A DNA stretch of 64,000 bases from Blastocatellia bacterium (GTDB lineage: Bacteria > Acidobacteriota > Blastocatellia > Chloracidobacteriales > Chloracidobacteriaceae), in assembly GCA_019695185.1 (NCBI GenBank), contig JAIBAN010000024.1:1-64000 (forward strand), written 5' to 3'. The position numbers were made by a program, and so were the translations under genes. Below the pieces are notes generated by a model. It was given only the letters and a program-made list of their open reading frames with translations. It was not told where the DNA came from and did not search any database. This document shows positions 17,000 to 64,000 of the stretch, piece by piece (positions within the stretch are counted from its first letter, which is position 1; each line of letters begins with the position of its first letter).

Positions 17000-17193
17000 A
17001 GGGTTCGGGATTCAGGGTTCAGGATTCAGGGTTCAGGGTTCAGGGTTCAGGGTTCAGGGTTCAGGGTCTTTTGAATTGAGAATTGAGAATTGAGAATTGA
17101 GAATTGAGAATTGAACTGCAAGTCAAAACCCTGAATTTCTACTATTCGAAAACCCTGAACCCTGAACCCTGAACCCTGAACCCTGAACCCTAT
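17000..17193. repeat. Heptamer composite element, copy C
   Basis: From left to right: GGGTTCA units (17000-17070), a TTTTGAATTGA junction with about six GAATTGA units (17072-17115), a short core containing ACTGCAAGTC and CTGAATTTCT, then TATTCGAAAACCC and inverted CCCTGAA units to 17193. It exactly fills the space between the ATP-grasp start and the DUF4870 stop. The same ordering occurs at 31198-31353, 60512-60683 and, inverted, at 50704-50806. Confidence 0.9.
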
Positions 17194-24294: not shown

Positions 24295-24447
24295 GACAGA
24301 GGACGAACTGAGGGCTGAGGACTGAGGACTGAGGACTGAGGAGCGAGTTTTTTTCACTTGAGGTATCACATACCTTCGACGCGCTTCTATAATCTGTTTA
24401 ATCAAAAGCTGGCAGAGGAATCACAAGGCTCTCAGTCCTCAGTCCTG
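24293..24447. repeat. GGACTGA heptamer inverted element
   Basis: About six imperfect units (24293-24341, e.g. GGACTGAGGACTGA) face two inverted units (24431-24447) across roughly 90 bp of AT-rich spacer. It fills the gap between the exported methyltransferase-like gene and the OppA-like gene and runs to within nine bases of the latter's start. Confidence 0.85.
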
Positions 24448-26142: not shown

Positions 26143-27666
26143 TTACAGCTTCACAATCCGCCGCATCAGGCGGATTTCTTGCGCCCCAAGTTCGCGCAGG
26201 GCAAACAGCACACCCGTGAAAACCAGTCCCTGAAGCGCCATTTTGATGACGACCAGAAACCCTCCCAAAGGGATGAGTGCCAGCGCATACACGACAGCGG
26301 AGGCCACGGCAATCCGAACCAGTGTGAGCGGCGAAATGAGGGCGCGAAAGACAACCCCCACATATCCGCAGGCCAAAATCGCTCCAAACAACATGGAAAC
26401 GGTGGTTCCCAGGGCTGCTCCCCGCAGGCCCATTTGCGGAATCCAGAGGTAATTCAGTCCGGCATTGGCGGCCAGGGTGACAAGCCCGATTCCGAGCGAG
26501 GCCCAGGGGCGACCGCTGCCGGTGATGATAGTGGTGAGCACCGCAATCAGGCCGAAACCAAGCATTCCATAGGCCACAATTTGCAGGGCCGGAGCGCCCG
26601 TGAGGTACATTTTCGGATACAGCAGTGCCAGCGTGTCGGCGGCATTTGAGGAAAACACCGTTGCCAGAAAGGCCATAATCAGCAGGGCCGCCCGCAGTGT
26701 CTGTTCAATATAAGTCCGCACGGTTTCGTTTTCTTTTTCAAACGAAGCCTTGGAAATCAACGGAAATGCCACAAACGTCACCGAAATCACCGCCTGATAA
26801 GTGATATTGGCGATATTCATCAGGGCACTGTAATCCCCCACGGTGGCACTGGCCTGGGCCGGGTCGGTAAAGGCTTTGAGGAAATTGATGTCCACTTTTT
26901 GCAGCAGATTGTTGCAGAGGACAAATGCCAGCAAGGGCAGTTGGAAGCTCAAATACTGGCCGATGTTGACATGCGGGGCGACCGTGCTGCGTCCGCGTCC
27001 TGCCACCATGATGGCCAGCACCAGCACCAGAAAGGCACCCAGGGCAAAGCCTCCGACTGAACCAATCACATTGCGGAAGGCAACCGCCAAACCGACAATG
27101 GCCAGCATTTTGAGTGTCGAATAGGAGGCATCAAGCACCGCCTGCCGGAAAAACTCTTTCTTTCCGTTCAGATAGCCGAGAAAAACCGCATAAAACGAAT
27201 AACTGAGCGTAATCAGGGCTGACACCCGGAGTGGGTTAATCAGCGCCGGGTCATGCCAGAACTCGGCTGCGACCACAGGGGCGGCCAGTACATAGGCAGC
27301 CACTATCCCTGTCCCCAACACTGCCTGCACCAGCAAGGCCCGGTTGCGCAGGCTTTCCGCCGCTGCCGGAATTTCCGAAACAAACTTGGAAACCGCCTGT
27401 TGTGTGCCGGTAATGATGACGGCGTTGATAATCGAAACGAAGTTGGTAATGAGGGCATATTCGCCGTACTGCTCTTTGGTCAGCAGGCGCGGGAGGGCAA
27501 AAATAATCACATACCCCGTGATGATGAAATAAAACTTGGCCAGGGTAATGTAAATCGTGCCCCGTCCGGCTTTGGCGGCGGTGTCTTCTTTGGGAGATTG
27601 GGAGGTCGGGGTCGGGGGTCGGGAGTCGGGGGTCTGGGGAACAGCTTGTTTTTTTGGAGTGGTCAT
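26143..27666 (-). CDS. Polysaccharide flippase (Wzx/MATE-like)
   Basis: A 507-residue protein with about 12-14 membrane segments (FYFIITGYVIIFALPRLL, EYALITNFVSIINAVIITG, LLIMAFLATVF, LVRIAVASAVVYALALIPLGGFLVVI). GRGTIYITLAKFYFIITGYV and LTKEQYGEYALITNFVSI are typical of oligosaccharide flippases of the MVF superfamily. It would move lipid-linked sugars across the inner membrane. The first 35 residues are disordered (PDSRPPTPTSQSP) and encoded by GTCGGG-type heptamers. ATG 27666 abuts a GAATTGA array. Confidence 0.87.
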   Translation of the reverse strand: MTTPKKQAVPQTPDSRPPTPTSQSPKEDTAAKAGRGTIYITLAKFYFIITGYVIIFALPRLLTKEQYGEYALITNFVSIINAVIITGTQQAVSKFVSEIPAAAESLRNRALLVQAVLGTGIVAAYVLAAPVVAAEFWHDPALINPLRVSALITLSYSFYAVFLGYLNGKKEFFRQAVLDASYSTLKMLAIVGLAVAFRNVIGSVGGFALGAFLVLVLAIMVAGRGRSTVAPHVNIGQYLSFQLPLLAFVLCNNLLQKVDINFLKAFTDPAQASATVGDYSALMNIANITYQAVISVTFVAFPLISKASFEKENETVRTYIEQTLRAALLIMAFLATVFSSNAADTLALLYPKMYLTGAPALQIVAYGMLGFGLIAVLTTIITGSGRPWASLGIGLVTLAANAGLNYLWIPQMGLRGAALGTTVSMLFGAILACGYVGVVFRALISPLTLVRIAVASAVVYALALIPLGGFLVVIKMALQGLVFTGVLFALRELGAQEIRLMRRIVKL

Positions 27667-27671
27667 TTTTC

Positions 27672-27853
27672 GAGAATTGAGAATTGAGAATTGAGAATTG
27701 AGAATCTGAGTTTGGCTATTTGTCCAAACTGTGACATGGAAAATATTAATTAGGCCAGAGTTTTAGGTTCACTTTCGCTCCGTCCCTGACTCTATCACAA
27801 CATCTTTTTCTCAATTCTCAATTCTCAATTCTCAATTCTCAATTCTCAATTCA
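27672..27853. repeat. GAATTGA heptamer inverted element
   Basis: Five GAATTGA units (27672-27706) face about six inverted TTCTCAA units (27809-27853) across a 102-bp spacer of low GC. It occupies nearly the whole gap between the flippase start and the universal stress protein stop. The two arrays could pair as a long hairpin. Confidence 0.9.
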
Positions 27854-29700: not shown

Positions 29701-31197
29701 ATGTTTCTTGACGGAAATTCGCTCACGTTGGACGCATTGTGCCGGGTGGCCACGGCCTCCGAACCGGTTGAACTTGACCCAGCAGCGCGGGAACGCGTCA
29801 TGGCTGCCCGCCATGTGGTCGAACAGATTTTGGCATCAGGCCGGGTGGTCTATGGCATTAACACCGGCTTTGGCAAGCTTTCTGATGTCACCATTCCCCC
29901 GGAGGAACTGCGCGCCCTTCAGCTTAATCTGGTCCGGTCCCATTCAGTCGGTATCGGTCAACCTTTGTCGGAAGCCGAATCCCGCGCCCTGGTTTTGTTG
30001 CGGGCCAACGTCCTGGCCAAAGGGCATTCCGGCGTGCGTCCGGAAGTGCTTGAAACCCTGTGCCAGATGCTCAATCGCGGCGTGCATCCGGTGATTCCGG
30101 AAAAAGGCTCGGTGGGTGCCAGCGGTGATTTGGCCCCGCTCTCTCATCTGGCACTGGTAACGATTGGCGAAGGCGAGGCATTTTATCAAGGTGAACGACT
30201 GCCGGGAGCCGAGGCGCTCCGCCGGGCGGAAATCACGCCGCTCGTCCTCGAAGCCAAAGAGGGGTTGGCGTTGCTCAACGGCACGCAGGCCCTGACCGGA
30301 GTCGGTGCCTTGACCCTGGCCCGGTTGCAAAAACTGGCGACGGCGGCTGATATGATTGGAGCGTTGACGCTTGATGCCCTTCATGGAACCGATGCCGCCT
30401 TTGACCCGCGCATTCACACCGCCCGCCCGCATTCCGGCCAAACCACAGTTGCCACGCACTTGCGGAATCTGCTGGCGGGAAGCGAAATCCGGTCTTCACA
30501 CAAAGATTGCCGCCGGGTGCAGGATGCGTACAGCCTGCGCTGTATACCGCAGGTTCACGGAGCAGTCCGCGATGTGATTGACCATACCCGGCAGGTGGTG
30601 GAAATCGAATTCAACAGTGCCACCGACAATCCGTTGGTGTTTCCTGATACGGGCGAAGTAATTTCAGGCGGGAACTTCCACGGCGAGCCGGTTGCGTTTG
30701 CTCTGGATTATGCCGCCATCGCCGCCGCCGAACTCGGAGCCATTTCCGAGCGACGTATCGAACGGCTGGTCAATCCGGACCTGTCCGAACTTCCGGCGTT
30801 TTTGACTCCTCATGCCGGAACCTGTTCCGGGCTGATGATTGTGCAAGTGGCCGCCGTTTCACTTTGCGCCGAAAACAAAATCCTGGCCCATCCGGCCTCG
30901 GTGGATTCCCTGCCAACCTCAGCCAACAAAGAAGACCATGTTTCCATGGGTATGACTGCGGCACTCAAGTTCCGCACCATCACCGACAATGTGGCGGCAA
31001 TTCTGGCTATGGAACTGTTGGCAGCCGCCCAGGCGCTTGAATTCCTGCGGCCCCAAAAGTCCAGCCCTGTACTGGAAAAAGTCCATGCGTTCGTGCGGAC
31101 ACTGGTCCCGAAAATCGAAACTGATGTCGTGTTGTCCACGCACATCGAAACGCTGAAGTGCCATTTGGAAGAAGTTGTGAGAGTGGCGGAAGGATAG
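29701..31197 (+). CDS. hutH: Histidine ammonia-lyase
   Basis: A 498-residue enzyme that deaminates histidine to urocanate. The Ala-Ser-Gly triad that forms the MIO cofactor is in GSVGASGDLAPLSHLAL. YGINTGFGKLSDV, QDAYSLRCIPQVHGA, EFNSATDNPLVFP and GGNFHGEPVAFALDYAAIA are all present. No hutU, hutI, hutG or hutC gene is adjacent. The start is the ATG at 29701; the frame is open for 26 codons upstream, but they are hydrophobic and not family-like. The TAG stop runs straight into a heptamer element. Confidence 0.94.
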   Translation: MFLDGNSLTLDALCRVATASEPVELDPAARERVMAARHVVEQILASGRVVYGINTGFGKLSDVTIPPEELRALQLNLVRSHSVGIGQPLSEAESRALVLLRANVLAKGHSGVRPEVLETLCQMLNRGVHPVIPEKGSVGASGDLAPLSHLALVTIGEGEAFYQGERLPGAEALRRAEITPLVLEAKEGLALLNGTQALTGVGALTLARLQKLATAADMIGALTLDALHGTDAAFDPRIHTARPHSGQTTVATHLRNLLAGSEIRSSHKDCRRVQDAYSLRCIPQVHGAVRDVIDHTRQVVEIEFNSATDNPLVFPDTGEVISGGNFHGEPVAFALDYAAIAAAELGAISERRIERLVNPDLSELPAFLTPHAGTCSGLMIVQVAAVSLCAENKILAHPASVDSLPTSANKEDHVSMGMTAALKFRTITDNVAAILAMELLAAAQALEFLRPQKSSPVLEKVHAFVRTLVPKIETDVVLSTHIETLKCHLEEVVRVAEG

Positions 31198-31353
31198 GGT
31201 CCAGGGTTCAGGGTTCAGGGTCCAGGGACTTGCAGTTTTGAATTGAGTTTTGAAACCTGTCTCAAAAACCCAAATTTCCTGATATTCGAAAACCCTGAAC
31301 CCTGAACCCTGGACCCTGGACCCTGGACCCTGGACCCTGGACCCTGAACCCTA
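31198..31353. repeat. Heptamer composite element, copy A
   Basis: GGGTTCA/GGGTCCA units (31198-31227), core beginning GACTTGCAGTTTTGAATTGA, then AACCTGTCTCAAAAACCC and CTGATATTCGAAAACCC, ending in inverted CCCTGAA and CCCTGGA units. It exactly fills the gap between the convergent stop codons of hutH and the SBBP gene. Its core is nearly identical to copy B at 60512-60683. Confidence 0.92.
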
Positions 31354-38254: not shown

Positions 38255-38410
38255 AGGACTGAGGACTGAGGACTGAGGACCAGCTTCTTTCCATTCCTGA
38301 TGCCAAGCTGTTGAGTCGTATGGTCTGAACTGAAAGGCAATTTCGTTGCATGGCAGGTGAAAATAACTCAGTCCTCAGTTCTCAGTCCTCAGTCCCCAGT
38401 CCTCAACTCT
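38255..38410. repeat. GGACTGA heptamer inverted element
   Basis: Four GGACTGA units (38255-38281) face about six inverted TCAGTCC/TCAGTTC units (38367-38406) across a roughly 85-bp spacer. It fills the gap between the ADOP permease stop codon (38411) and the response regulator start. Confidence 0.88.
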
Positions 38411-40865: not shown

Positions 40866-40973
40866 GGAGGGCTGAGGATTGAGGACCGAAGAGACAAACC
40901 ATTTTGCAACACAGACAGATAACCAGCCTGTTTGTTTTCCTCAGTCCTCAGTCCTCAGTCCTCAGTCCTGGGG
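40866..40973. repeat. GGACTGA heptamer inverted element overlapping a gene end
   Basis: About three degenerate units (40866-40890) face five inverted units (40939-40973) across about 48 bp. The inverted array forms the last codons and the stop of the ABC ATPase gene. Confidence 0.8.
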
Positions 40974-41662: not shown

Positions 41663-41716
41663 TCAGGACTGAGGACTGAAGACTGAGGACTGAGGACTGA
41701 GGACTGAGGGCCGAGT
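41663..41716. repeat. GGACTGA heptamer array
   Basis: Seven near-perfect units in tandem, lying directly before the ATPase start codon (on its strand they form the leader). No clear opposing array lies within the 121-bp gap; the next inverted units are past the gene at 40939-40973. Confidence 0.85.
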
Positions 41717-43030: not shown

Positions 43031-43053
43031 GTGGTTTCTCCTGGCTACTCAAA

Positions 43054-43072
43054 GGGCAAGCGCTGTGCCAGG
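43054..43072 (-). promoter_or_regulatory. Sigma-54 promoter of the HlyD-ABC-ADOP-NtrC-NtrY block
   Basis: On the minus strand the sequence reads CCTGGCACAGCGCTTGCCC. TGGCAC and TTGC match the -24 and -12 elements, and the invariant GG and GC are 12 bases apart as required. Predicted transcription start is near 43044, giving a 14-nt leader that still contains the AGGAG ribosome site of the adaptor gene. The operon itself encodes a sigma-54 activator with an intact GAFTDA motif. Confidence 0.82.
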
Positions 43073-43094: not shown

Positions 43095-43118
43095 TTGCGA
43101 AAAACCCTTATTCCGCAA
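43095..43118. promoter_or_regulatory. Candidate activator binding dyad
   Basis: TTGCG and CGCAA are separated by 14 bp, a dyad centred about 62 bases upstream of the predicted sigma-54 start site. Size and spacing suit an NtrC-family activator site, but a single half-conserved dyad can arise by chance. Confidence 0.35.
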
Positions 43119-47157: not shown

Positions 47158-47405
47158 AGTTTTGAATTCTGAGTTTTGAGTTTTAAATCAAACCACAGAT
47201 GATTTGAACAAAACCTTTCACCGCAGAGGCGCAGAGAAGGCGCAGAGAAGGCGCAGAGAAGAAACCAGAAAAACTCTGCGAAAGCTCTGCAAAAGCTCTG
47301 CGCCTCTGCGGTGAGAAAAATATCTGATGTGTTCCAATGTTGTGTGGTCCGATTTAAGTTCAAAGCAGCGGCAGAAATTCAAAACTCAAAATTCAAAACT
47401 CAAAA
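47158..47405. repeat. GAGTTTT heptamers around a 19-bp inverted repeat
   Basis: GAGTTTT/GAATTCT heptamers at 47158-47186 and inverted TCAAAAC/TCAAAAT units at 47376-47405 bracket an inner palindrome. The inner arms 47218-47236 and 47296-47314 are exact over 19 bp, with internal direct repeats of GGCGCAGAGAA on the left and AAAGCTCTGC on the right. The whole fills the 267-bp gap between the DUF1501 start and the DUF1800 stop. Confidence 0.85.
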
Positions 47406-47406
47406 C

Positions 47407-49485
47407 TTACTTTCTTTGAAATTCCGGTGAACCCAGCACCAGACCGGTCAGTTGGGCAATGTCCGTGACAGGCGCGCCTGCTTTCGTCAGGTCCGACAAA
47501 TCATCCGGACCAGTTTCCATCACACCCTCGGCTTTTTTGCGGCGGCCTTCGCGGCGGGCAGTCTTATCCATGACAGACTGGTCATCCGTGGGCGGTGCGG
47601 TCCGATTCATGCCTGTTGCCGGCTTGGATTGCCCCAGGGTGGCAACCTGAGTCGAGAGCGTCTTGCGGGTCTGGTCCGAGACATCATTCTGGAGGAAGGC
47701 ACCGAAGAGCCGGTCCAAAATCGCTCCGGGTCGGGTTTCCCCGTTGGTCAACTGGTCAAGCGAAACATTGATGCCTGGAATCTTGTTTCCGGCCAGGCCG
47801 ATGCCAAAATTGAGCCGTCCGAGCAATGCTCCGGTATTCACCCAATGGTCAGCCGTATCCGGATAACCTGTCGGAGGCTGCCAGCCATAAAGCGGCATTC
47901 CCAGGCGGGACAAAATCACCACCGCCACCCGTGCATCGCTCACATTGGCATTGGTCGCACGCAACGAACTGGCCACCAGTTCGAGCGGAGTTTTGACTTT
48001 GGCCCGATAGGAATCTTTGGCCAAAAATTGCGGAGAGGTGAAAATCGTCCGGTAGACCGCCGTCAAATCACCATCCGTTTTGCGGAAAGTTTCAGCCGCC
48101 GCATCAATCAATGTCTGGGGGGGATTGTCCGAAACGAACCGCCGGGCCAGCTTGGTGGCGATAAAGCGGGCCGTTGAAGGATGCTGGGCCAGCATATGCA
48201 GGATTTTTTCCCCATCGTTCTTCCCGCCACCTGCCCCGATTTTCACACCCAGCACGGTTTTTTCGCCTTTGTCATGTGCCATTTCGTGATAGGCAAAAGT
48301 TCCTGGTGTGCCGGTATTGAATCCGGCCCGCGCCATCCCGCCATTCGGGCGATTGATGCCCCAGCCGGTAAAGCAGCGGGCGACTTCGGTCACGTCCTTT
48401 TGCGTATAGCCGCCATCCACTCCCAGTGTATGCAGTTCCATCAGTTCGCGGGCGTAGTTTTCATTCAAACCCAGTTTGCGGCCTTGAGCCTGTTTTTTCA
48501 GTTTGGCAGCCGTCTCAGCCTGTTTTTGCTCCTGTGCCTGTTCGCGTTCCAGCTGGTACTGCTGGCGCTCGCGTTGCCGTTCAAGCTGCGCCGGATTGCG
48601 TGGGAACCGGTTTCCACCGCCCAAACGTCCGCCCCCTCCAAAGCGTCCACCACCCAGGGGATTGGGATTTTGGGGACGGCGTTGATTGGCCAGGTTTTGC
48701 AGCTTGGTGTTCATGTTGGGGTCCACCGACTGCCAGTTGTCGAGGTAAAACATCATGGCCGGACTTTCCGCCGTTGCCTTCAACAGGTCCTCAAACTTAC
48801 CGAACACATGGGGACGAATCGTGTCGCGCTCGTAGCTGGTCAGAAACACCCTGTCCAGCCCCTTGCCGACGAACACGTTGAAATGATTGAGCCAGAAATC
48901 AGCCAGCACTTCCTGCAACTGCCGCTCGCTGTAGACAGCCCGGAGCAGCTTGGCTTCCATCAGTTCGCGCGGAATGTCACGCGGCTTGGTCTGCCCGTCA
49001 CCAAATTTTTCTTGCGTGAGCTTCCGGATTTCCTTCCGGCTTTCGGTGGACATGTCTGTTGTATTGAGCTTTCCATCTTCACCCGGTTTGGCTCCGGCTT
49101 TGAGAATCTGCTGCCGCAGTTCCCGTCCTTCACGCTCAACTTCCATCAAATCGCCTTGCGACATGGTGAGTGTCTTAAACTCAGTCAGTCGTGCTTCCAG
49201 GTTCGTATCAGAAATTTTCTCGGGATGCAGTTGCTGGTCGATATATTTTTCAAGCCCCATCTGGCGCACTTTTTCCACATCACCAGGACGCGGGCCATAC
49301 CCCAGCCGGTTCAACACATGAACAATCCGCTGGTCACCGCTTAATTGTGCAATAGGGGCTTTTTTGCCGGAGGGCTTTGAGTCGGCCAGGGAACCAAACG
49401 GTGCCAGCACGGATGTCACAAGCAGGCAGGCCAGGACACCCGCGCACACCGTCAAAAGACGGGTGCGGGTATGTATCTGTAACAT
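47407..49485 (-). CDS. DUF1800 exported protein
   Basis: A 692-residue protein with a signal peptide (RLLTVCAGVLACLLVTSVLA). Family motifs: HVLNRLGYGPRPGDVEKV, LLRAVYSERQLQEVLADFWLNHFNV, NENYARELMELHTLGVDGGYTQKDVTEVARCFTGWGI. Between residues about 270 and 345 lies an insertion of a Gly/Arg/Asn-rich stretch and a Glu/Gln/Arg-rich predicted coiled coil. Start ATG 49485 is chosen (GAGG upstream); TTG 49500 is an alternative. It is the first gene of the block with DUF1501 and the small Tat protein. Confidence 0.92.
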   Translation of the reverse strand: MLQIHTRTRLLTVCAGVLACLLVTSVLAPFGSLADSKPSGKKAPIAQLSGDQRIVHVLNRLGYGPRPGDVEKVRQMGLEKYIDQQLHPEKISDTNLEARLTEFKTLTMSQGDLMEVEREGRELRQQILKAGAKPGEDGKLNTTDMSTESRKEIRKLTQEKFGDGQTKPRDIPRELMEAKLLRAVYSERQLQEVLADFWLNHFNVFVGKGLDRVFLTSYERDTIRPHVFGKFEDLLKATAESPAMMFYLDNWQSVDPNMNTKLQNLANQRRPQNPNPLGGGRFGGGGRLGGGNRFPRNPAQLERQRERQQYQLEREQAQEQKQAETAAKLKKQAQGRKLGLNENYARELMELHTLGVDGGYTQKDVTEVARCFTGWGINRPNGGMARAGFNTGTPGTFAYHEMAHDKGEKTVLGVKIGAGGGKNDGEKILHMLAQHPSTARFIATKLARRFVSDNPPQTLIDAAAETFRKTDGDLTAVYRTIFTSPQFLAKDSYRAKVKTPLELVASSLRATNANVSDARVAVVILSRLGMPLYGWQPPTGYPDTADHWVNTGALLGRLNFGIGLAGNKIPGINVSLDQLTNGETRPGAILDRLFGAFLQNDVSDQTRKTLSTQVATLGQSKPATGMNRTAPPTDDQSVMDKTARREGRRKKAEGVMETGPDDLSDLTKAGAPVTDIAQLTGLVLGSPEFQRK

Positions 49486-49611: not shown

Positions 49612-49640
49612 TGCTGAGGACTGAGGACTGAGGACTGAGT
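49612..49640. repeat. GGACTGA heptamer array
   Basis: Four GGACTGA units stand in the gap between the DUF1800 start and the stop of the 89-residue gene. No opposing array is seen nearby. Confidence 0.8.
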
Positions 49641-60511: not shown

Positions 60512-60683
60512 AGGGTTCAGGGTTCAGGGTTCAGGGTTCAGGGTCCAGGGTCCAGGGTTCAGGGTTCAGGGACTTGCAGTTTTGAATTGAGGTTTGAACT
60601 TTGAGTTTTGAAACCTGTCTCAAAAACCCAAATTTCCTGATATTCGAAAACCCTCAACCCTGGACCCTGGACCCTGGACCCTG
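60512..60683. repeat. Heptamer composite element, copy B
   Basis: GGGTTCA/GGGTCCA units, then GACTTGCAGTTTTGAATTGA, an extra 14 bp compared with copy A, AACCTGTCTCAAAAACCC, CTGATATTCGAAAACCC, and CCCTGGA units. It fills the gap between two convergent stop codons, as copy A does at 31198-31353. Confidence 0.92.
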
Positions 60684-61693: not shown

Positions 61694-61796
61694 AGTGAAG
61701 TGACAAGTGACAAGTGACAAGTGACAAGTCCAAAAAACACCAAGCCAGTTCTTGGCTTTCTCTTTCCTGTCACCTGTCACTGCGGACCTGTCACCC
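61694..61796. repeat. GTGACAA heptamer inverted element
   Basis: Four GTGACAA units (61694-61730) face three CTGTCAC units (61766-61796), one of them degenerate, across a 35-bp spacer. It lies between the DUF4097-like gene start and the gene at 61835. Confidence 0.85.
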
Positions 61797-61834: not shown

Positions 61835-62257
61835 ATGCAGGAAATCACCTTTTTACACAAATACCACCAAGCACTGATTCGGACCTTGGGCACCATCACC
61901 GGACGAACCGTCCCCCACGACCACGGCTTTGAAAACCTGACTGATTACACCTACGGGTGGAATGTTCTCGGTTCCCTGGCAATTGCCGTCTGGGAACTGG
62001 AGGTCTTTTATCCTGATGCCTTTGAACAACACCCCGAATGGGAAGCTACCGCGAATGCGACCTTTATTTATCTGGTCGAGCATTGTTCCCGCTGTGGCAC
62101 CAAAGACAAAAGCCGTTCCAGTCTGGTTTTGTGTCGGTCCTGCCGCGAACAGGTCACCGCCGAATATCTCAACTCCGTGATGGAAGGCCAACTGGCACAA
62201 AACGTATATGCGTTTGCCGATGACCTGACCGAACGGGAAGTCTATTTCCAGGACTGA
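61835..62257 (+). CDS. Small protein with a possible zinc ribbon
   Basis: A 140-residue soluble protein. ITFLHKYHQALIRTLGTITGR and YTYGWNVLGSLAIAVWELEVF lead to a CxxC-X(14)-CxxC pair (CSRCGTKD, LCRSCREQ) that could bind zinc. No family recognised. Start ATG 61835 is chosen because the open frame upstream is repeat DNA. The final FQD and stop come from a CAGGACTGA heptamer unit, so the natural C-terminus may have been altered. rsmB follows on the same strand. Confidence 0.65.
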   Translation: MQEITFLHKYHQALIRTLGTITGRTVPHDHGFENLTDYTYGWNVLGSLAIAVWELEVFYPDAFEQHPEWEATANATFIYLVEHCSRCGTKDKSRSSLVLCRSCREQVTAEYLNSVMEGQLAQNVYAFADDLTEREVYFQD

Positions 62258-62280
62258 GGACTAAGGACTGAGGACTGAGT
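62249..62280. repeat. GGACTGA heptamer array over a stop codon
   Basis: Four units in tandem; the first supplies the last two codons and the TGA of the gene at 61835-62257. Confidence 0.85.
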
Positions 62281-62317: not shown

Positions 62318-63841
62318 ATGAAACCTATTTCACCACAACTGGTTAAAAAGAAAACCACCCCGACCAGGGAAAAATCAACCGACGGCCAATCGGGTCCGGG
62401 CACGGCTCCGGCGGGCTCGCCGGGAACCGTCAGCCCGGCACGGCGTGTCGCGTTTGAAACGCTCCTCCGGGTGGAACAAAGCGAAGCCTGGGCCACGGAA
62501 GCACTGGAAGCCGAATTCCGGAAATTTGTCACAACCTACCGGGGTGACCGCTCGCATCTGGATGCCGACCGCCGGTTGGCCCAGGAAATCACGCTGGGTG
62601 TGCTCCGGCACCGCGGCTGGCTGGACGACCGGATAGTCAAATTTGCCGGTCGCCGCCTGACCAATATTGACCCGCAGGCACGGGTTACGCTCCGCATGGC
62701 GCTTTATCAGATTGCCTTCCTTTCACGAATTCCCGCATCTGCCGCCGTCAACGAAGCGGTTAATTTAATGAAAGGTTCCCACCACACCGCGCACCTGGGC
62801 GGTTTTGTCAATGCCGTCCTGCGCGAAGCCCTGCGGGCCAAAATCACCTTTGCAGTTTCAGAAGGGTCCCTGCTGGAATTGGCCCGGACCCGGCAATGGG
62901 AAAAACTGGAAGCTGCGCTTTCCCATCCAGCCTGGCTGATGCAGCATTGGGCCCGGCAGTGGACACCCGAACGGGCCGTCCGGATTGCGCTGGCCAACAA
63001 TACCGTCCCTCAAAGCTGCTTCTGGCTGAATCCGCTGCGTGGCAATCCGGCGGAACTGCGCCTGGAACTGGAAGCGCAGGGCGTTCAGGTACGGGAAGTG
63101 CCTGACTTCCCCGGAACCCTGGAATGGGTTGAAGGCGATTTCAGCCTGCTCTGGTCATTGGTTGAAGCCGGCAGTGCCTATGTGCAGGACGTTGCATCCC
63201 GGCAGGTGGCCCACTGGGTCGGGGTGGAACCCGGCATGGACGTGCTCGATATGTGCGCGGCTCCGGGAGGAAAAACCGCCTGTCTGGCTGTCATCATGAA
63301 CAATCAGGGCACGATTTCCGCCCTGGAAATTCATGCCCAGCGCGTAGCGGAACTGAAGGCCAACGTCGCCCGACTGGGAGCCACCATCATCACAGCTTAC
63401 CTGGCCGACAGCACCGACGAGTCTCTTTTCCCTGGACTTGCCCAACGGCATTCTCAATTCTCAATTCTCAATTCTCAATTTGATGCCGTGCTGGTGGATG
63501 CCCCTTGCTCCGGAACCGGAACGCTCCGCCGGCATCCGGAAATCAAATGGCGACTGGAAGCCAAAAAACTGGGTGAACTGGCTGGAACCCAGTCGCGGTT
63601 GCTGGCCAACGCAGCCCAGGCCGTCAAACCGGGGGGCATTCTGCTCTATTCCACCTGTTCCCTGGAAGAAAAGGAAGGCGAGGAAGTCGCCCGGATTTTC
63701 CGCAACCGGCATCCGGAATTTGAAATTGCTCCGCCCCCCAACGCCGAAGCATTCCTTTCTCCCGAAGGGTTTCTGCGAATCTGGCCGACTGCCGGTCCGG
63801 ACGGTTTTTTTGCCGCCCGCTTTCGCAGGAAACAGGGCTGA
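62318..63841 (+). CDS. rsmB: 16S rRNA (cytosine-5)-methyltransferase RsmB
   Basis: A 507-residue enzyme that methylates C967 of 16S rRNA. A 40-residue disordered extension is followed by a NusB-like domain (RRVAFETLLRVEQSEAWATE, LPISRIPASAAVNEAVNL-like AFLSRIPASAAVNEAV) and the methyltransferase domain with MCAAPGGKTACLA (SAM), VLVDAPCSGTGTLRRHPEIKWR and YSTCSLEEKEGEEV, so both catalytic Cys are present. Just before VLVDAPCSG an in-frame heptamer array (63450-63480) adds about ten residues (HSQFSILNSQ) absent from ordinary RsmB. No ribosome site is evident. Confidence 0.93.
   Translation: MKPISPQLVKKKTTPTREKSTDGQSGPGTAPAGSPGTVSPARRVAFETLLRVEQSEAWATEALEAEFRKFVTTYRGDRSHLDADRRLAQEITLGVLRHRGWLDDRIVKFAGRRLTNIDPQARVTLRMALYQIAFLSRIPASAAVNEAVNLMKGSHHTAHLGGFVNAVLREALRAKITFAVSEGSLLELARTRQWEKLEAALSHPAWLMQHWARQWTPERAVRIALANNTVPQSCFWLNPLRGNPAELRLELEAQGVQVREVPDFPGTLEWVEGDFSLLWSLVEAGSAYVQDVASRQVAHWVGVEPGMDVLDMCAAPGGKTACLAVIMNNQGTISALEIHAQRVAELKANVARLGATIITAYLADSTDESLFPGLAQRHSQFSILNSQFDAVLVDAPCSGTGTLRRHPEIKWRLEAKKLGELAGTQSRLLANAAQAVKPGGILLYSTCSLEEKEGEEVARIFRNRHPEFEIAPPPNAEAFLSPEGFLRIWPTAGPDGFFAARFRRKQG
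63450..63480 (+). repeat. ATTCTCA heptamer array inside rsmB
   Basis: Four tandem ATTCTCA units plus a partial unit lie in frame in the rsmB coding sequence. The unit is the same as in the arrays at 27809-27853 and 50763-50788, read in the one orientation that contains no stop codon in any frame. Confidence 0.93.
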
Positions 63842-63852
63842 GAACGCTCCCC

Positions 63853-64000
63853 CAGGACTGAGGACTGAGTGGATTGAACCGACCGGTTGCCTGTGCCAAT
63901 GGTAGTCCGGTATAAGGTGCCAAAAAATTGAGAATCAGAAACACAAACCATGTCAAACCAGAACTCAGTCCTCAGTCCTCAGTCCTCAGTCCTCAATCCT
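63853..64000. repeat. GGACTGA heptamer inverted element (runs off the window)
   Basis: Two to three GGACTGA units (63853-63870) face at least five inverted TCAGTCC units (63964-64000) across a 93-bp spacer. The right array continues past the window edge. Confidence 0.85.

Follow-up and report, generated by a model that had tools for sequence, protein, structure and literature searches.

Autoregulated systems built on an NtrC-type regulator are already known. ZraSR-like systems combine a receiver-AAA+-Fis regulator carrying a GAFTDA motif, a partner kinase, a -24/-12 promoter and an upstream dyad enhancer, and control their own unit; autoregulation of ZraR is stated in PMC12316311. According to the same paper, sigma-54 control of FtsX-type ABC permeases (COG0577) and ATPases (COG1136) was predicted in 2025 by a matrix search covering Gammaproteobacteria, Opitutia and Bacteroidia; Acidobacteriota, HlyD and MacB are unmentioned in its text, and its passages on these transporters give no regulator-specific enhancer for them. 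In the Bce modules of Firmicutes (BceAB-BceS-BceR; PMC10314905, PMC3023708), an FtsX-type ABC transporter is accompanied by a kinase without a dedicated sensing domain, which reads transporter cycling (PMC10314905), and the regulator raises transporter expression. As to the transporters themselves, MacA-MacB tripartite efflux and the darobactin exporter DarBCD both join an adaptor to an ABC ATPase and a MacB-type permease. Permeases of the ADOP type are numerous in Acidobacteriota. No paper giving these permeases a function or regulation was found; a literature search for sigma-54 together with MacB or HlyD found nothing either, and Francke 2011 (PMC3162934) mentions neither MacB, ABC nor efflux.

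Here we describe a locus from a Blastocatellia bacterium (Acidobacteriota), situated in a 64,000-nucleotide stretch of DNA that was analysed as a whole and is called the window below. The locus shares with ZraSR-like systems all the components listed above, the binding of the regulator being predicted, but its target is a HlyD-MacB-ADOP efflux system and its enhancer has the form TGTCCG..GGGA-N8-TCCC..CGGACA. With the transporters in PMC12316311 it has the transporter class, the sigma factor and the computational nature of the prediction in common. It resembles the Bce modules in its FtsX-type transporter and its kinase, and the same role is proposed for its regulator; it differs from them in having an NtrC-type regulator, sigma-54, a HlyD adaptor, a duplicated ADOP permease and a Gram-negative envelope. 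Unlike in MacA-MacB and DarBCD, the ATPase and the permease are encoded on separate genes and the permease is of the duplicated ADOP type. What is new here is the Acidobacteriota regulon, an enhancer code together with its one regulator, and the tie of separate ADOP permeases to one HlyD-ATPase pair.

Results

Genes of the efflux locus

The five genes for the HlyD adaptor, the MacB-type ATPase, the ADOP permease, the NtrC-type regulator and the kinase lie on a single strand (Table 1); no outer-membrane TolC gene was identified within this block.

Table 1. Features of the efflux locus and of its predicted control region (window positions).
Feature	Position	Strand	Basis
Tandem-dyad enhancer (UAS), two dyads	43220-43183	minus	de novo in orthologues; matrix score; core uniqueness
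Sigma-54 -24/-12 promoter TGGCACAGCGCTTGCC	43070-43055	minus	rule geometry; matrix score; conservation upstream of orthologous HlyD genes
Predicted +1	43044	minus	geometry alone, from the -12 at 43056
AGGAG ribosome-binding site of HlyD	43042-43038	minus	inside the predicted transcript
HlyD/RND-type periplasmic adaptor, 417 aa	43030-41777	minus	PF13437, TIGR01730 over cut-off
MacB/LolD-type ABC ATPase, 235 aa	41655-40948	minus	PF00005
ADOP duplicated FtsX/MacB permease, 833 aa	40912-38411	minus	TIGR03434
ADOP-NtrC gap, 185 nt	38410-38226	minus	inverted heptamer arrays, strong hairpin
NtrC-type response regulator, 459 aa	38225-36846	minus	PF00072, PF00158, PF02954
Sensor histidine kinase, 452 aa	36830-35472	minus	PF02518; H at GHEINN (246)

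HlyD orthologues show 42-63% identity, and the ATPase, usually encoded immediately 3' of HlyD in orthologous loci, mostly 65-77%. The ATPase matches the DarD and LolD models, and the proteins of the locus stay under the DarB/C/D cut-offs. The permease matches TIGR03434 over profile positions 1-803, that is, at full length, with 928.9 bits (cut-off 622.3), and is the sole ADOP above cut-off in the genome. The regulator has the domain order of the NtrC family: a receiver (D59 expected), an AAA+ domain with GAFTDA at residue 234 and a Fis-type helix-turn-helix with SRSALYRR at 446. It falls far under every NCBIfam equivalog cut-off (AtoC, ZraR, NtrC, GlrR), with 387 against 714 for AtoC. Domain matches and the located motifs thus bear out an earlier, sequence-only reading of the window, in which the gene block was said to encode an NtrC-type activator with GAFTDA and its kinase. 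At the N-terminus of the kinase, hydropathy indicates two membrane segments with a connecting loop of ~10 residues, a length that is fixed in 33 aligned sequences, and a domain search recognised no periplasmic sensor domain. Two membrane helices with a very short outside loop are also what characterises the Bce kinases; the single BceB-type permease with a large extracellular domain and the OmpR-type regulator of those modules are replaced here by ADOP and an NtrC-type protein.

A conserved -24/-12 site upstream of HlyD

In the same reading, CCTGGCACAGCGCTTGCCC (43072-43054, minus strand) was held to follow the -24/-12 rule exactly and to start transcription 14 bases before HlyD while keeping its AGGAG site. 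The GG at 43069-43068 and the GC at 43057-43056 are indeed 10 bases apart, so that TGGCAC and TTGC elements form a GG-N10-GC arrangement, and the predicted +1 lies 14 nt ahead of the HlyD ATG (43030), with AGGAG retained, as judged by geometry. Counting bare -24/-12 consensus matches with at most one mismatch was uninformative as a test of the site (6 matches in the window against 4.4 expected), and such a frequency is what would be expected if the match were chance intergenic sequence. That explanation is scarcely credible in view of two further results. Firstly, a matrix built from orthologous loci only, the window excluded, ranked 43070-43055 first among the ~128,000 window positions on both strands (16.7 bits, with 14.2 for the next). 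Secondly, the site is conserved at orthologous positions across the whole phylum, down to a protein identity of ~45%. Of 297 Acidobacteriota genomes, 112 have a HlyD orthologue, as do 25 of 58 relatives; among 96 regions of 250 nt each upstream of orthologous HlyD genes, 41 contained a site scoring at least 22, compared with none on the opposite strand and an expectation of 0.55 from shuffles, and 74 a site scoring at least 20, as opposed to 12 on the opposite strand and 7.4 expected in shuffles.

The genome itself (8.33 Mb in 222 contigs) has a single rpoN (one Sigma54_DBD match, 195 bits) and ~33 genes or domains that are good or strong matches to sigma-54 activators. With the strict pattern TGGCAYN5TTGCW it gives 56 matches, as opposed to 10 with the reversed control; therefore, promoters of this type are in use.

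Two variations were observed among the HlyD loci. Several families of the same class keep TGGCACG and have TTGG, TTTC or TTCC at -12 instead of TTGC (L046, L047, L050, L051, L053, L161, L164, L165, L163, L055, L041 and L159); these forms, which occur at other promoters of the regulon as well, are possibly lineage-specific. In one family (L115, L120, L125, L128, L130, L133, L134 and L136) the C of the -12 element lies only 14-17 nt before the HlyD start codon as chosen, which would make the transcript nearly leaderless.

A tandem-dyad enhancer

Inverted word pairs were counted upstream of HlyD in 95 loci and in shuffled controls. TGGGA-N8-TCCCA was found at 9 loci, the window among them (shuffles reach 4), GGGA-N8-TCCC at 22 (shuffles reach 14) and TGTCC-N6-GGACA at 11 (shuffles reach 4). 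These words turned out to belong to one object in two forms, both consisting of two dyads spaced 20-22 bp apart: class A, approximately tgtcCGgttttGGGA-N8-TCCCAnAAgCGgACA, and class B, TGTCC-N6-GGACA repeated after 20 bp. The window copy, GTCTCACAAATGGGATTTGATTTTCCCAAAAACGAACA, was absent from the sequence-only reading. Its first dyad, GTCTC-N6-GGGAT (43220-43205), and its second, TTCCC-N6-GAACA (43198-43183), are 22 bp apart and centred at ~-168 and ~-146 relative to the predicted +1, in agreement with the tandem dyads located ~80-170 bp upstream that typify the NtrC family. With a matrix from which the window was excluded, the element was the top window position (28.5 bits, the next independent site having 14.3).

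Some features of this copy are less regular. It is set 112 bases upstream of the promoter, a longer distance than most relatives have, and the first of its dyads is a weak one, with GTCTC in place of TGTCC; across the NtrC-positive loci, the two patterns recognised an enhancer in only 50 of 72. As a genome-wide marker, exact TGGGA-N8-TCCCA alone proved unspecific (14 sites, 8 in the control), unlike the longer core TCCCANAANCGRACA, of which the whole 8.33 Mb contain precisely one copy. This single occurrence suggests that the regulator would have one main target in this genome. Another dyad, TTGCGGAATAAGGGTTTTTCGCAA at 43095-43118, lies between enhancer and promoter; considered as an activator site in the form TTGCGGAA-N8-TTTCGCAA (43118-43095), it was rejected, not being among the dyads common to the orthologues.

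The promoter and enhancer follow the NtrC orthologue

An orthologue of the regulator (64-68% identity) is present in 21 of 25 HlyD-positive relatives and in 1 of 33 HlyD-negative ones, in many cases distant from HlyD or on another contig. Among 90 HlyD-positive genomes, the HlyD promoter accompanies it in 66 of 72 genomes, compared with 2 of the 18 scored without it (p 4.5e-11; here and below, Fisher tests count related genomes as independent). One of the two exceptions, G059, has a partial NtrC, and its omission gives 1/17 (p 6.6e-12). That partial protein, encoded beside a kinase (L352:4089-6069) in a genome that has kept the HlyD promoter, matches residues 8-266 only and has no helix-turn-helix match; it represents either a truncation or an assembly error. 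The regulator is missing from 12 separate clades of the HlyD tree, mostly adjoining sisters that have both NtrC and promoter, and in 11 of the 12 the promoter is missing too.

The specificity of the dyads changes with the protein. Where the recognition helix could be read at class A loci (GGGA-N8-TCCC core), it is SRSALYRR in 28 of 28, whereas the helices with Gly, Ala or Thr for the second Ser, which come from several families, go with class B dyads in 13 of 13 cases (p 7.7e-7, related genomes again counted as independent). Three independent lines, namely co-occurrence, joint loss and helix/dyad specificity, point to the NtrC encoded by the operon as the predicted ligand of the enhancer, and a joint change of recognition helix and DNA site is, as far as sequences can tell, well supported. 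It could be argued that the promoter depends on sigma-54 and is driven by another of the ~33 enhancer-binding proteins, the neighbouring NtrC having other targets: the genome is rich in activators, and NtrC binding is predicted. However, the repeated disappearance of promoter and enhancer along with the NtrC orthologue, a dyad that follows the NtrC recognition helix, and an enhancer core unique in the genome make such an arrangement improbable.

Predicted autoregulation and the wider regulon

The gap between the ADOP and NtrC genes folds with -71.7 kcal/mol (z -4.9). Its length and strong hairpin raise the question whether transcription of the NtrC-kinase pair may be independent of ADOP, in part or altogether. 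In the fullest version of this explanation, NtrC would drive the efflux genes from the real promoter described above, and the NtrC-kinase pair would have a separate promoter past the hairpin, with no autoregulatory loop in this genome. The 185-nt gap with its inverted heptamer arrays and the separate location of the regulator in many relatives favour it. On the other hand, the minus strand of the gap contains neither a T-rich terminator nor a sigma-70-like promoter, none of the operon gaps yielded an intrinsic terminator on that strand, and heptamer arrays are widespread in the window, plainly unrelated gaps included. A sigma-54 site with an intact -12 GC was not found in the gap either.

As an observation on the window as a whole, its gaps are rich in short arrays of 7-bp units (AGGACTG, AGGGTTC, GAGAATT and others), often arranged as inverted pairs and so potential hairpins, including those between the genes of the operon. 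Such arrays lie at 17000-17191, 24307-24342, 27604-27852, 31196-31352, 38255-38405, 40938-40969 and 41665-41709, and further at 47375-47407, 49614-49639, 60512-60683, 61698-61729, 62250-62279 and 63450-64000.

Relatives in which NtrC is unlinked to HlyD are more telling with regard to autoregulation. In them, genes for ADOP permeases and for a second MacB-type ATPase precede the NtrC-kinase pair, and the majority of such unlinked ADOP/MacB/NtrC clusters have the same enhancer and -24/-12 site (L257, L258, L260, L261, L262, L264, L266, L268 and L269); therefore, the regulator would control its own cluster in these genomes too. Immediately 5' of the unlinked NtrC genes the enhancer and promoter were not found, except in G003, because the promoter precedes the upstream permease or ATPase gene. 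Judged by these sequences, the window, with its linked genes, shows one variant of a self-controlled NtrC cluster, and a separate NtrC-kinase promoter without a loop is rather unlikely.

A composite enhancer-promoter search blind to annotation gave 20 genome-wide matches in the 58 relatives and 0 with the reversed control. Every match belongs to a genome that has HlyD, and the HlyD-negative genomes gave none. The genes that follow the matches encode HlyD, ADOP permeases, MacB-NtrC, a CAAX-type protease and four receiver-SpoIIE phosphatase proteins, besides a small number of other products. Downstream of the same HlyD/ATPase pair, permeases come in several arrangements, of which ADOP is one. 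The receivers of the SpoIIE (PP2C) proteins (L293, L297, L300 and L301) resemble that of the operon NtrC, hinting that the same kinase might have these proteins as its second output.

Relatives of HlyD and NtrC also occur in Verrucomicrobiota, in Opitutia and Chthoniobacterales. Most Opitutia loci have -24/-12 sites, the Chthoniobacterales loci do not, and neither group showed a recognisable copy of the Acidobacteriota enhancer; the Opitutia loci may use a different dyad. At eight of the latter (L367, L376, L389, L396, L399, L415, L417 and L423), NtrC is encoded ~3-5 kb upstream of HlyD, with the -24/-12 site near HlyD.

Discussion

The sequence-only reading had proposed sigma-54 control of the efflux operon by a regulator within that operon, and had called this wiring unusual. 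The former part stands: predicted sigma-54 control is well supported, and so is predicted control by the operon's own regulator, autoregulation included, given the conserved promoter and enhancer, their joint loss with NtrC and the covariation of helix and dyad. The latter part fails, because the circuit recurs across Acidobacteriota and HlyD/NtrC relatives extend to Verrucomicrobiota. The circuit thus appears to be an old, conserved Acidobacteriota regulon and not a local oddity.

From these results, a model may be put forward in which the HlyD-MacB ATPase-ADOP-NtrC-kinase operon is positively autoregulated from the sigma-54 promoter by its own NtrC acting at the tandem dyads; taken as a whole, we consider it highly probable. 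The promoter would be silent until the regulator is activated. The partner kinase would phosphorylate the NtrC-type protein, as their families imply; phosphorylated NtrC would bind the two dyads, and DNA looping, again by analogy with the families, would allow it to remodel the sigma-54 polymerase and open the complex. The output of the transporter and of the regulator would then rise: further downstream, the same gene string includes the regulator and the kinase, presumably on a single transcript that runs through them, so activation would increase their own level. Sigma-54 promoters require their activator, and a basal supply of NtrC would therefore have to come from elsewhere, either another weak promoter or read-through. 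The most speculative step concerns the signal. The kinase, having no evident sensor domain, might read the state of the transporter as in Bce modules, and such sensing is an attractive idea based on that analogy.

More tentatively, and with somewhat more doubt than belief on our side, a broader picture can be drawn: a dedicated regulon under sigma-54 that would go back to the ancestor of much of Acidobacteriota. Within it, one NtrC/kinase pair, using a tandem-dyad code of its own, would co-express a single HlyD-MacB ATPase pair and scattered ADOP permeases, the sensor-less kinase monitoring transporter activity. If this is true, the partners of otherwise orphan-looking permeases are identified, and the system corresponds, under sigma-54, to the flux sensing of Bce modules. 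The joint change of helix and site should be useful for decoding other NtrC-type regulators. The shared enhancer-promoter code would allow cooperating permeases, adaptors and signalling proteins to be read from raw genomes, and, with the regulator and kinase defined, their trigger would show what the pumps respond to.
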